Shown: in pieces, positions 8,835 through 13,860 of the stretch
How positions within the stretch are numbered: the stretch's first letter is position 1
Layout: the number at the start of each line of letters is the position of its first letter
Source of the DNA: Candidatus Mcinerneyibacteriota bacterium
GTDB lineage: Bacteria > AUK180 > JAQVHJ01
Length of the DNA: 16,687 bases
Direction of reading: 5' to 3'
NCBI GenBank assembly: GCA_030630935.1
Contig: DAOVMD010000015.1
Location: forward strand, 1 to 16,687
Notes under the pieces: generated by a model
Told to the model about the DNA's origin: nothing
Database searches by the model: none
What the model saw: only the letters and a program-made list of their open reading frames with translations
Translations under genes and position numbers: made by a program

Positions 8835-9515
8835 CTATAAATAAAGGGATATGGAGAGGATTAATCCATTTACGGGGATGAGATCTGTTTCTTCTTTGAA
8901 GAAGAGGTTCATGTCTTTATATTGGAAACCACAGAGAATTTTATATTTTATTTTTGGAGATGGAACATAATATAATCCAGTTCCTATATTAAATCCCCCA
9001 CCGTTTCTCTTGAATTTTTCTGAGGTATCCAAACCAACATAATTGAATTTCAAGTTGGTAATTTTTTTATCTACATTAATAAGGGTATGCATAATGAATA
9101 ACCCGAATGAGATGAAAGGTTGATATTTCTCAGTCCTTGATTCAGAAAAGATATATTCGATAGAACTTCCTAATTGATATGAGAATACATCATTATACAT
9201 TTCATTCTTGATATCGGCATTAACCGTATCACTATACCAAACATCATCATTATAACTTTTAGCCATAGTAAAATTAAAATTAAATTCGAGGTTTAATTTA
9301 TTCGTTAAAGAATTCTGGTAGCTGAATCCGAACATATAATCTTGAGTCAAGTCCCCGTATTTCCAGAGGTTATTTACATCAACATCTTTCCAGGACTTCA
9401 AAAGTGAAGGTGAAGTTCCCAAATGAAATCCAAAATAATGATCCTTTGCAATCGCGATTGTTGGGATCAAAATTATAAGGAATAAAAATAATACTCTAAT
9501 TTTCTTTATCATCAT
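8835..9515 (-). CDS. Outer-membrane beta-barrel-like protein
   Basis: A 226-aa protein with a clear signal peptide (MMIKKIRVLFLFLIILIPTI, then AIAK, cleavage likely after IAIA). The mature part is rich in alternating hydrophobic/aromatic strands (YFGFHLG, YMFGFSYQNSL, LNLEFNFNF, PFISFGLFIM, GFNIGTGLYYV, YKILCGFQY) typical of a small 8- to 10-strand barrel, and it ends in a strand (LILSISLYL), though not in the usual terminal Phe. No specific family is recognised. The start lies inside the end of the small membrane gene, with GGGGAGGA about 6 nt upstream, so the two are cotranscribed from the promoter at 9659-9687. Confidence 0.8.
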   Translation of the reverse strand: MMIKKIRVLFLFLIILIPTIAIAKDHYFGFHLGTSPSLLKSWKDVDVNNLWKYGDLTQDYMFGFSYQNSLTNKLNLEFNFNFTMAKSYNDDVWYSDTVNADIKNEMYNDVFSYQLGSSIEYIFSESRTEKYQPFISFGLFIMHTLINVDKKITNLKFNYVGLDTSEKFKRNGGGFNIGTGLYYVPSPKIKYKILCGFQYKDMNLFFKEETDLIPVNGLILSISLYL

Positions 9516-9641: not shown

Positions 9642-9707
9642 AAACTCCTGTTTATAATATAATAACTCATTTTAAGAAATTAATCAAGAGAAATCTAACA
9701 GGAGTTT
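9642..9707. promoter_or_regulatory. 11-bp perfect inverted repeat bracketing the promoter
   Basis: AAACTCCTGTT (9642-9652) and AACAGGAGTTT (9697-9707) are exact reverse complements, with centres 55 bp apart. The proximal arm overlaps the predicted transcript start and the AGGAG ribosome site of the 47-aa gene; the distal arm lies just upstream of the -35 box. It could be a paired operator, or a way to hide the ribosome site in transcripts starting further upstream. Confidence 0.45.
9659..9687 (-). promoter_or_regulatory. Sigma-70-type promoter for the 47-aa/outer-membrane gene pair
   Basis: On the minus strand: -35 TTGATT (9687-9682), a 17-nt spacer, -10 TATTAT (9664-9659). The predicted start falls near 9652, about 13 nt before the ATG, with the ribosome site inside this short leader. 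Confidence 0.5.
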
Positions 9708-9783
9708 CCCTATTTTTTTATTAATATGGAGTGCATCGATGTTCTCAAGCAACTCTCATATACCACGTTGGGTATACGACTTC

Positions 9784-10079
9784 AGATTGAGATCTATATA
9801 ACTGCGTATATAATAATCGACATTAAAAAGCATTATTTTCCGTTGCACGTTTGGTCAATTGACCAAACGTGCAACGGACATGAATAATAATTGCAAGGAT
9901 TTTTTTTACCACAATAAATATTATGTGCGACAGGCACGAACAAAATAGGTTTTATTAAAGTGCTTATGTACATGAAATTAAAGAAATAAAATAACAAATT
10001 ATATAAGAACACTTTTTTATTTAGTAATAATAATAAATAGTTATGTCGAAAACAATATGCGCAGCTATATAGATTGAGA
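9784..10079. mobile_element. 278-bp MITE-like element with 9-bp target duplication
   Basis: The direct repeat AGATTGAGA (9784-9792 and 10071-10079) flanks 278 bp whose ends are inverted repeats: CTATATAACTGCGTATAT at left, AATATGCGCAGCTATATA at right. The match continues inward to TCGACATTAA (left) and TTATGTCGA (right). The inside holds a perfect 38-bp palindrome and no credible gene; an 87-codon minus-strand frame here is incidental. Non-autonomous size, terminal repeats and a target duplication all fit a MITE moved by an unseen transposase. A shorter relative sits at 4633-4749. Confidence 0.7.
9840..9877. repeat. Perfect 38-bp palindrome inside the mobile element
   Basis: The left half is CCGTTGCACGTTTGGTCAA and the right half is its exact reverse complement, with no loop. 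The symmetry continues imperfectly outward (ATTATT on the left, AATAAT on the right). It could extrude as a cruciform. Confidence 0.9.
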
Positions 10080-10114
10080 CTAAGTATTGTATGCATGTAA
10101 TACAGTCTCGATCT
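10071..10114. repeat. Long imperfect hairpin at the insertion site
   Basis: AGATTGAGACT (10071-10081) pairs with AGTCTCGATCT (10104-10114) except for one G-T position; an inner GTATT/AATAC pair extends the stem. One arm contains the target duplication, so the element inserted into a pre-existing palindrome. Confidence 0.55.
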
Positions 10115-10291
10115 AAGGTCTCGGTCTGATTACTGTTGTTTTCCAAAGGAAAATAATGGAGGGACGGTCCTCCCATTTTGTCCCATTCATATCTCTAAAT
10201 GTCGTTATATTGGAAAATTGGTTTTTTATTTGATTTTTATTGTTTTCATACACGACATAAATGTCGGATATTTTTCTATCATTTTCCTAGG

Positions 10292-10473
10292 GTTAAAACC
10301 CCAGGCTATGAATCATTTTCATAATTGCCATAAATGGCTTTATTACAATATCTTATGTTAAAACCACATGCTATTAATCTTTTTCATAGTAGCCACAAAT
10401 GGCTTTATTACAATATCTTATGTTAAAACCACAGGCTATTAATCATTTTCATAATTGCCATAAACGGCCTATT
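10292..10473. repeat. 65-bp tandem repeat, three units
   Basis: Units start with GTTAAAACC at 10292, 10357 and 10422, exactly 65 nt apart. Shared blocks are CAGGCTATxAATC, TTTTCATA, GCCAxAAAxGGC and TTTATTACAATATCTTAT (the last only in units 1 and 2). Each unit has a small hairpin around GCCATAAATGGC. A similar CATAAATG-centred hairpin, CGACATAAATGTCG, lies just before at 10253-10266. Confidence 0.88.
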
Positions 10474-10513
10474 CGGTTAAGTATGTTAACCTCAAGAGGA
10501 ATATAGAATAGAA

Positions 10514-10619
10514 AGAGCTTCAGCTCTAATGCGAAGAGCCCCGGATTTCAATCCGGGGATTAAATTATCGCACCCTCACAAGGGACTTCAGTCCCAAGTT
10601 TAATCCCATTCATGGGATT
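10514..10619. repeat. Array of four hairpins sharing a TTCA loop
   Basis: Four perfect hairpins have different stems but one loop: AGAGC-TTCA-GCTCT (10514-10527), CCCCGGAT-TTCA-ATCCGGGG (10539-10558), GGGAC-TTCA-GTCCC (10582-10595) and AATCCCA-TTCA-TGGGATT (10602-10619). They lie between divergent genes, upstream of the predicted channel promoter, so they are not terminators of the flanking genes and are not in the predicted channel mRNA. Confidence 0.85.
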
Positions 10620-10644
10620 ATTTATCTCTTATACCATTTTTATA

Positions 10645-10673
10645 TTGAATTTATATTATAATTCTGTTATACT
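10645..10673 (+). promoter_or_regulatory. Sigma-70-type promoter for the channel gene
   Basis: -35 TTGAAT (10645-10650), a 17-nt spacer, -10 TATACT (10668-10673). The start would fall near 10680, giving a leader of about 40 nt to the ATG at 10720. Confidence 0.5.
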
Positions 10674-10719
10674 ATGAATAGATAAATTTTAACTTTTAAA
10701 ATTAATGCGGGGTTGGCAG

Positions 10720-12609
10720 ATGAAGAAGTATTCATTTTGGGATAAGGTTAAGTATATATTTGATAATACTATGTCCAGGGGTGCGATTGCCCTGATTTTA
10801 TGGTTAACTGTATTCACGTCAATTCTGATCGTGGTGATCTCTGCGATAACTTTTTTGGGGAACATGGCTCCTGGTAGTCCTAAGTTTCCAGAGTTATTAT
10901 GGATAGTTTTGATGAGAGCCTTGGATCCTGGCAATGTATCCGGGGATGAGGGAATATTATACCGCCCCTTAATGTTTCTATTAACTTTGATGGGTATTTT
11001 TATTTTCAGTACCTTAATCGGTATAATCACTACCGGAATTGAGACTAAGATAGAGGAGTTGAGAGAAGGTAAGTCTCGGGTTATCGAGACTAATCACACC
11101 ATAATCTTTGGTTGGTCGGAGCAGGTTTTTACTATTATCCAGGAATTGATAATTGCCAATGATAATCAGAAGAAATCCTGTATTGTGATCCTGGGTGAAC
11201 AATCAAAGGTGGAGATGGAAGAAGAGATTAAGAAGAAGGTCGGGAAGACCGGGAAAACTCGAATAGTCTGCCGTCAGGGTAGCCCTATTGATATTAACGA
11301 TATTGAGATTGCTAACATTGACAGTTCAAAATCAATAATTATACTATCTCCTGAAACAGAGGACCCCGATTCAAGTGTGATCAAGACCATGCTCGCAATT
11401 ATTAATAATCCGAATCGGAATCCGGAAACCTATAACATCGTTGCAGAGATCCGTGACCCGAAGAATACGGATGTGGCTCAACTGGTGGGGAAAGATGAAG
11501 CAGAGATCGTATTAATCGGGGATTTAATCTCAAAGGTGATTGCTCAGACCTGCCGGCAATCAGGTTTGTCTCAGGTTTATGGAGAGTTGATGTCATTCGA
11601 AGGTAATGAGATTTATTTTGCAAAGGAGTCCGGATTAACCGGGAAAATATTCGGGGATGCAATCTTCAGGTATGAGGATTCGGTTTTAATCGGAATTAAA
11701 CAGAAAGGGAAGCCTCCAAAGCTTAATCCGGCAAAAGATATAATGATTAATGCCGAAGACGAACTTCTCTTTATTGCAGAGGATGATGATACCATGGTCC
11801 TCTCTGATATTACCGAGTATAATATAAATGAAACAATTATTAATCACCAGAGGCATGAAGAAGCAAAACAGGAACGAACGCTGATCCTCGGTTGGAACTG
11901 GAGAATTACCGGTATTATCAATGAATTAGATAACTATGTCACCGCAGGTTCAGAATTAATTGTAGTGGCTGAGAAGAAGTATGGCGAAAGGATTATTCAA
12001 GAATCATGTACCGGGATTAAAAATCAGAGGATTAAATTTATACGTGAGGATACCACTGACCGGAGAACATTGGATCGGTTGAAGATAAACGAATTCAATC
12101 ATATTATCATCCTTTGTTATTCTGATGATTTAGAACCACAAAAATCAGATGCCAAAACTTTAATAACCCTGCTGCACCTACGGGATATAGCTGAGAAGCT
12201 TGAAAAATCCGGGTCAATCGTGAGTGAAATGATTGATATCAGGAACCGAAACCTGGCAGAGATTACCCAGGCAGATGACTTTATTGTGAGTGATAGGTTA
12301 ACCAGCAAGATAATCTCACAGATTTCCGAGGATAAACTCCTGCACGCAGTTTTCCAGGATCTGTTCTCCCCGGAAGGATCTGAGATTTATCTGAAATCAA
12401 TTACAGATTATATCTCAACTGATAAAGAAGTGAATTTCTATACCCTGACCGAATCCGCTAAGTTGAAGGATGAAGTCGCGATAGGGTACCGGCTGATGAA
12501 ATATGCAAATGACTCTACTGAAGCCTATGGTATAAAAATTAATCCTCCTAAATCTCAATTGATAAAAGTTGTTGATGATGATTATTTAATTGTACTGGCA
12601 GAAGACTAA
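10720..12609 (+). CDS. CASTOR/POLLUX-type RCK ion channel
   Basis: A 629-aa protein from the ATG at 10720 (15 nt after an in-frame ATG at 10705; GCGGGG precedes 10720, while nothing like a ribosome site precedes 10705). It has a membrane helix (~22-46), a pore loop with MRALDPGNVSGDEG (~65-78), a second helix (~83-107), then SRVIETNHTIIFGWSE (~119-134), the opening of the first regulatory Rossmann/RCK region. A second such region starts with LILGWNWR (~388). This order matches the bacterial relatives of plant CASTOR/POLLUX/DMI1 channels, which conduct cations and are gated through the RCK ring, by Ca2+ in the plant proteins. The filter differs from the TVGYG of ordinary K+ channels, so selectivity should not be assumed. 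It has its own promoter and appears monocistronic. Confidence 0.9.
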   Translation: MKKYSFWDKVKYIFDNTMSRGAIALILWLTVFTSILIVVISAITFLGNMAPGSPKFPELLWIVLMRALDPGNVSGDEGILYRPLMFLLTLMGIFIFSTLIGIITTGIETKIEELREGKSRVIETNHTIIFGWSEQVFTIIQELIIANDNQKKSCIVILGEQSKVEMEEEIKKKVGKTGKTRIVCRQGSPIDINDIEIANIDSSKSIIILSPETEDPDSSVIKTMLAIINNPNRNPETYNIVAEIRDPKNTDVAQLVGKDEAEIVLIGDLISKVIAQTCRQSGLSQVYGELMSFEGNEIYFAKESGLTGKIFGDAIFRYEDSVLIGIKQKGKPPKLNPAKDIMINAEDELLFIAEDDDTMVLSDITEYNINETIINHQRHEEAKQERTLILGWNWRITGIINELDNYVTAGSELIVVAEKKYGERIIQESCTGIKNQRIKFIREDTTDRRTLDRLKINEFNHIIILCYSDDLEPQKSDAKTLITLLHLRDIAEKLEKSGSIVSEMIDIRNRNLAEITQADDFIVSDRLTSKIISQISEDKLLHAVFQDLFSPEGSEIYLKSITDYISTDKEVNFYTLTESAKLKDEVAIGYRLMKYANDSTEAYGIKINPPKSQLIKVVDDDYLIVLAED

Positions 12610-13286: not shown

Positions 13287-13770
13287 ATGTTAAATCGCTC
13301 AAGTGTTAAAAAAAGTTCAAGAGCTGAAGAAGCTTTGATAGTTCAATTGTTCAAGTGTTGCATGAGTTTAAGTGTTTTTGTAGAGACGTGCCACGGCACG
13401 TCTGATAGTTCAATAGTTTAAATGTTATTATAGTTAAAGTGCTGAACGAGTTTTGATAGTTCAATCGTTCAAGTGTTTAAATGTTAGGTTTGCTCAACTC
13501 TTAAACTATTTAACGATAGATGTGCAACGACACATCAATAAAATAACTCTTGAACACATGGGAAGCATGTTGTTATAACATTTGAACGATTGAACCATAG
13601 ACATGCGGTAGCATGTCTTTAAAATAACTCTTGAACGCATGCGGAGCATGCATTTATAACATTTGAACGATTGAACCATAGACATGCGGCAGCATGTCTT
13701 TAAAGTAACCCTTGAACATATGCGAAGCATGTTGTTATAACATTTTAACAATTTAACATTTTAACCCTTT
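13287..13770. repeat. Octanucleotide/hairpin repeat array with inverted halves
   Basis: The left half (about 13287-13495) is built from 8-nt words such as GTTCAATC, GTTCAAGT and GTTTAAAT. The right half (about 13540-13770) carries the same words reversed and complemented (AACATTTG, AACGATTG, AACATTTT). Short hairpins interrupt both: AGACGTGCC-AC-GGCACGTCT (13383-13402), GATGTG/CACATC (13518-13535), GACATGC-GGTA-GCATGTC (13600-13617) and GACATGC-GGCA-GCATGTC (13681-13698). The whole can fold as a large imperfect inverted repeat. Confidence 0.8.
13540..13760. repeat. 81-bp tandem repeat, two full units and a partial third
   Basis: Units start near 13540, 13621 and 13702 (AAAATAACTCTTGAAC, AAAATAACTCTTGAAC, AAAGTAACCCTTGAAC). 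Each full unit has two hairpins, one around CATG...GAAGCATG or GCATGCGGAGCATGC, and one GACATGC...GCATGTC. A minus-strand frame running through it codes 27-aa repeats and is judged incidental. Confidence 0.88.
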
Positions 13771-13844
13771 CAATTTTTTGATTTTAATTTCAAAAAATTA
13801 ACATATATTCATTTTTTTATTCCTATAATAGGGGAGAATTTCTA

Positions 13845-13860
13845 AGGCACGATTCTTGCA
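13845..13860 (+). promoter_or_regulatory. Sigma-54 (RpoN) promoter for the secreted protein
   Basis: AGGCACGATTCTTGCA matches the -24/-12 consensus (TGGCACG-N4-TTGCW) at every defined position but the first; GG (13846-13847) and GC (13858-13859) are exactly 10 nt apart. Transcription should start near 13871, giving a leader of about 14 nt that still contains the AGAGG ribosome site. A TATAAT at 13824-13829 lacks a good -35 partner. Confidence 0.68.

Follow-up and report, generated by a model that had tools for sequence, protein, structure and literature searches.

Among the closest described systems is the REP of Marinomonas sp. MWYL1, in which a perfect 5-bp stem closes on the loop TTTA next to GTAG (Corneloup 2021, PMC8266576). 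By SELEX, mutants, and cleavage assays, loop positions 1, 2, and 4 (T, T, and A) were found to be essential for its REP transposase, and position 3 was free. The stem sequence was of small importance to this TnpA_REP, i.e., swaps were tolerated and mismatches were harmful, and GTAG served as a guide for the cleavage site. This TTNA recognition was demonstrated for group 3 (class 2) TnpA_REP, not for subclass 1.2 (PMC8266576). The GTAG-tagged REPs and BIMEs are dispersed and mostly located between genes; each palindrome is short, has a short loop, and carries GTAG at its foot (Di Nocera 2013, PMC3733652). The BIMEs are often inverted dimers, and their spacers contain further stem-loops. The subclass 1.2 TnpA_Y1, which has the signature Y---Q--HH, was reported to be without REPs and generally without the typical IS200 terminal structures (Quentin 2018, PMC6006769).

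The window, i.e., the whole analysed stretch of 16,687 nucleotides, carries four perfect TTCA hairpins on the plus strand at 10514-10620, with stems of 5, 8, 5, and 8 bp. H1 (10514-10527) is AGAGC-TTCA-GCTCT. The linker AATGCGAAGAG (10528-10538) follows, and it contains the degenerate tag GAAG where sister copies have CGTAG. H2, CCCCGGAT-TTCA-ATCCGGGG (10539-10558), has 8 bp and is REP-like; in the sister copies and in the related bacterium STE_202, GTAG stands beside it. A 23-nt spacer (10559-10581), of similar length in other copies, leads to H3, GGGAC-TTCA-GTCCC (10582-10595). H4, TAATCCCA-TTCA-TGGGATTA (10601-10620), has 8 bp, one more than the earlier note had counted. No GTAG adjoins H1, H3, or H4.

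TTCA was the most frequent tetraloop of the window, and no TTCA hairpin with a stem of at least 5 bp was found elsewhere in the 16.7 kb; all four lie within 107 bases. When the window was dinucleotide-shuffled 1000 times, a mean of 0.2 TTCA hairpins appeared per shuffle. The best cluster of the same loop within 110 bases reached two in 34 shuffles and never three or four. A chance origin of the cluster was thereby ruled out, as the earlier note had held. Folded as single-stranded DNA, the stretch gave z = -6.2, and the minimum-energy structure included all four hairpins and an extra small stem around H2. The surroundings were also as that note described them. The hairpins lie between divergent genes (8835-9515, minus strand, and 10705-12609, plus strand) and upstream of a weak promoter-like match at 10645-10673.

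The four hairpins are not independent of one another; together they make up half a copy of a repeat that is dispersed between genes. The DNA of 10490-10630 matched 20 places in the host genome (3.16 Mb, 471 contigs, 80% complete). All 18 copies checked were outside ORFs of at least 100 aa, and the copies adjoin unrelated genes in both orientations. The aligned copies showed one common architecture. H1 is joined to H2 by a linker with CGTAG at its end (window-type copies have GAAG), about 23 nt separate H2 from H3, and H4 sometimes follows. Relative to the H2 loop, the loop positions were nearly fixed, at -28 to -35 for H1, +37 to +40 for H3 (the 37-40 nt of complete copies), and +62 for H4. 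The conserved order and spacing of the hairpins indicate a repeat and not independent hairpin birth.

In each slot of this architecture, both arms were altered together between copies, and pairing was perfect in the H1 variants. The H1 slot held the stems AGAGC/GCTCT, AAAGGAA/TTCCTTT, AGCAA/TTGCT, and AAGGGAA/TTCCCTT, the last three with the loop TTTA in other copies. The H2 slot held CCCGGAT, CCCGGGT, and CCATGGT, and the H3 slot held GGGAC/GTCCC or AATAGGAA/TTCCTATT. The loops of the family were TTCA or TTTA, and TTAA was rare. In a loop-blind control with the H3 pattern GGGACNNNNGTCCC, the 22 genome sites were divided into 15 TTCA, five TTTA, one TTAA, and one TTTT. In several copies (L010, L011, L013, and L015), the H2 loop was replaced by a CATTGCGAG..GCAATC repeat, a repeat nested in a repeat.

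In two copies, on C148 and C428, H4 is followed by an inverted unit with CTAC at its end and then by H1 in inverse orientation, which identifies the complete element as an inverted dimer. It spans about 230-300 bp in the order H1, (C)GTAG, H2, H3, H4, inverted H3', H2'-CTAC, and H1', with H4 at its centre. Complete dimers were found in C148, C428, and STE_202, and the window copy consists of the left half and the centre. No gene was found within the element, whereas an autonomous IS200/IS605 element has an intact Y1 gene between its subterminal hairpins. Many dispersed short palindromes, extragenic sites, and inverted dimers, of which the window holds one half only, are the features of REPs and BIMEs. 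The stretch most probably represents the left half of a REP/BIME-type element that is non-autonomous, lies dispersed between genes, and is putatively spread by a Y1 transposase.

The element shares with the GTAG-tagged REPs and BIMEs the short loops, the GTAG foot (at H2 of the sister copies), the dispersed intergenic placement, and the inverted dimers with extra stem-loops (PMC3733652). It differs in that each half has three or four hairpins with the common loop TTYA, i.e., TT(C/T)A, and H2 alone is tagged, and the tag of the window copy is degenerate. It resembles the Marinomonas REPtron in perfect stems, a TTNA-type loop, a GTAG tag, and free stem sequence; that system consists of single small REPs with GTAG 2 nt from the stem, whereas this is a multi-hairpin element (PMC8266576). 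A literature search with the exact hairpin strings returned unrelated papers only. Judged on the open-access literature, the element is a new family and architecture of the REP/BIME type.

By plain DNA similarity search, the element was found in none of 59 other genomes. This search was misleading, because a genome of the same family, found by pattern search, keeps the architecture with new stems. This genome, bacterium STE_202 (L119), is the nearest relative; it belongs to a different genus and was the sole other member of the family among the relatives listed, with which it was equated by a 100% match and by Y1 coordinates that agree exactly. It gave 59 matches to the four-hairpin element with order and spacing unchanged. 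The hairpins were AACAA-TTTA-TTGTT, GTAGG-CCCRGGT-TTYA-ACCYGGG, GGGC-TTCA-GCCC, and AGTCCGA-TTAA-TCGGACT, and the element continues into an inverted CCGTGGT-TTTA unit with CTAC. Between the two genera, loops, tag, and spacing are conserved and stems are not. A pair of genera that share the architecture but not the stems provides a natural data set on what single-strand-DNA transposases read in hairpins.

The earlier note had also mentioned comparable TTCA hairpins in repeat-rich genomes elsewhere, and pattern matches across GTDB genomes bore this out. The tagged-H2 pattern GTAGNCCCGGGTTTYAACCCGGG (GTAG and the CCCGGG-TTYA module) matched 98 stretches against a chance expectation of about 0.06 by our own estimate for random sequence; the scan covered this one stem with TTYA loops. 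The matches came from Bacteroidota, Chlorobi, Fibrobacterota (Chitinispirillia), Neomarinimicrobiota, Holophagales, Hydrogenedentes, Zixibacteria, and others. Bacteroidota and Fibrobacterota are absent from the published list of phyla with GTAG repeats (PMC3733652). The count of GTAG tags in the retrieved contigs mainly reflects the pattern used to find them and is not evidence. A phage origin was also considered, and an exact IMG/VR search with the window-type H1-linker phrase gave no match.

Y1_Tnp genes were gathered from 24 named genomes selected for the tagged H2, with a match in 23. Most of the classifiable genes showed the signature DHxH ... Y---Q--HH of the subclass 1.2 type, and they agree with the published subclass in signature and approximately in length (PMC6006769). 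TTYA hairpins cluster by these Y1 HUH genes. For 40 subclass-1.2-like genes, TTYA accounted for 33 of 64 tetraloop hairpins (stem of at least 6 bp) within 400 bp, and for 2 of 20 beyond 700 bp. In an order not selected for the repeat (10 genes), the counts were 8 of 20 near and 0 of 9 far. Fisher's test gave p = 0.0014, which makes the clustering look stronger than it is, because hairpins of one locus are not independent and only 13 of 50 subclass-1.2 genes had a TTYA hairpin nearby; in about 10 of these 13, such hairpins lay on both sides. A Kapaibacterium gene (L260), for example, has inverted ATATTTGTAG-CCGCCGGT-TTYA-ACCGGCGG hairpins at 56 and 20 bp, and flanked genes are also present in the laboratory strains Mucilaginibacter sp. 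OK283 and Dyadobacter sp. CY356. Stems tend to match within a locus and differ between loci, and the loops are constant. As a separate observation, other subclass-1.2 genes (L341, L342, and L344) were flanked by another fixed-loop class, i.e., CCC-TNAC-GGG hairpins with variable outer stems, in which the loops were TAAC and TGAC, and TGCC once.

The link of GTAG/TTYA hairpins to subclass 1.2 Y1 genes is probable, and it is apparently unreported in the open-access literature; the hairpins flank a sizeable minority of these genes, where no REPs had been reported (PMC6006769). Subclass 1.2 proteins, which had no substrate before, thus gain a candidate, and their function becomes directly testable. 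It is tentatively proposed, as a possibility that falls somewhat short of even, that a second REPtron-like system, with subclass-1.2 Y1 HUH proteins as its enzymes, is spread over Bacteroidota, Fibrobacterota, Neomarinimicrobiota, Acidobacteriota, and others. The substrates of these proteins would be GTAG-tagged TT-N-A hairpins with freely evolving stems, and they would disperse multi-hairpin BIMEs like that of the window.

The TT(C/T)A loops are kept while the stems are free; the most likely cause is a single-strand-DNA transposase for which the loop and a short tag, and not the stem, are the signal. We infer that the TTYA hairpins are sites that a Y1 HUH enzyme recognises on folded single strands. 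During replication, single-stranded copies of the element would fold on the lagging strand. A Y1 transposase, probably of subclass 1.2 and perhaps a REP transposase, would bind the GTAG tag and the T-T-N-A loop, cleave nearby, and so spread the element. The stem would be selected for pairing and little else, so that the arms could drift together or whole hairpin modules could be exchanged, whereas the loop could not change. If so, the loop and tag, not the stem, are the feature read by single-strand-DNA transposases. The earlier note had offered a loop-recognizing protein as one of two readings, and this part gained indirect support from the turnover of stems with TT-N-A kept, the TTYA clusters by Y1 genes, and the published TTNA requirement (PMC8266576).

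The 80%-complete assembly of the host genome yielded no intact cognate transposase, and no Y1 gene there is flanked by this element in the manner of a REPtron. In other genomes, related GTAG-TTYA hairpins do flank Y1 genes. The own genome has a broken subclass-1.2 gene on C247 (L046:740-1207), with 49% identity over 100 aa. The C-terminal part of this gene, including the catalytic Tyr of the Y motif, is replaced by an approximately 25-bp tandem array with units of the type AAAGATATCGCTCCTACAGAGCTGC.

A variant of the transposase reading, rather unlikely but the likeliest of the alternatives, holds that the element is mobilised by class 2 RAYT (TnpA_REP) and not by subclass 1.2. The TTTA-loop rule was established for class 2 TnpA_REP, the cognate of the Marinomonas REPtron, and not for the subclass found beside the TTYA hairpins here (PMC8266576). 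In addition, a RAYT-like gene in the set of relatives (L304) has GTAG-TTYA hairpins within 250 bp. However, TTYA hairpins were near only 2 of the 11 RAYT-class genes examined, compared with the 13 of 50 for subclass 1.2. The own genome encodes two RAYT-like Y1 genes, C338 and C343, both under the NCBIfam cut-off. As cognates these were rejected, since C338 is flanked by a different repeat and C343 has a TTCA copy only at a distance of about 3 kb.

Mutational template switching across the hairpin, which copies one arm and so makes or repairs perfect stems with no protein recognition, is improbable as a full account. It would explain that arms change jointly and sometimes wholly, e.g., AGAGC and AAAGGAA in one slot, with few mismatched intermediates. 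The C148 copy has also lost approximately one arm and the loop of H2, as is expected of hairpin slippage. Against it stands the loop census of 76 contigs picked by number, an unbiased sample of 518 kb. The TTCA hairpins with stems of at least 5 bp numbered 22 against 17.2 expected (1.3-fold), i.e., approximately background, and TTTA hairpins were at 1.9-fold. The enrichment is thus a property of the repeat family and not of the genome, and a general hairpin-making process is not supported. The genome-wide TTCA excess, which the earlier note had set as its own check, did not appear, and its suggestion of a genome-wide arm-copying process is left without support. Moreover, order and spacing are kept between genera, and the loop follows the published rule of protein recognition (PMC8266576). 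Under the preferred reading of a REP/BIME-type element, only pairing is selected and stems drift or are exchanged as modules, and template switching may be a supplier of the stem changes.

A structured RNA that would serve the downstream channel gene, either in cis as a regulator or as a small RNA, is very improbable. The predicted fold is strong (the z of -6.2 was obtained with DNA parameters) and the stems are compensated, but the copies are dispersed beside unrelated genes in either orientation, the nearest promoter-like site ahead of the gene lies downstream of the stretch, and no Rfam family reached its gathering score. No tRNA or known RNA family was matched.

A bidirectional transcription terminator is equally doubtful: the terminator pattern is matched by H4 on the plus strand and H1 on the minus strand (five sites in the region, 0.5 expected), but the genes are divergent, H2 and H3 have no T tract, and fixed loops in a multi-hairpin architecture are left unexplained. 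The terminator-like features are better regarded as a side effect of REP hairpins than as their origin. A host function of the element, such as termination or an RNA role, is possible and secondary.

Several families of dispersed repeats are gathered in the intergenic region 9684-10628 and form an island. A repeat of about 280 bp (9794-10073) is present on other contigs, and a 40-bp perfect palindrome lies at 9839-9878. A solo copy of a different repeat, GGAGGGACGGTCCTCCCATTTTGTCCCATT, is located on the plus strand at 10158-10214, with 84% identity to L044:8780-8836; this repeat is also found directly upstream of the C338 RAYT gene, which starts at 8892. Three 65-bp tandem units (10292-10486) carry a related TTTA hairpin phrase, GCCATTTATGGC ... 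ATAGCCTGGGGTTTTAACCCTAGG, on the minus strand, and the TAG-tagged hairpin is best kept in the unit at 10292. The Rfam family Acido-Lenti-1 RNA was matched at 10286-10313 below threshold (22.8 bits, cut-off 37). In its consensus, CUA follows a hairpin, and this family may therefore represent a REP of the GTAG type, read from the opposite strand. Beyond the island, 81-bp tandem repeats with AGACATGCGGYAGCATGTCT hairpins occupy 13300-13860 and are dispersed on many contigs of the genome.
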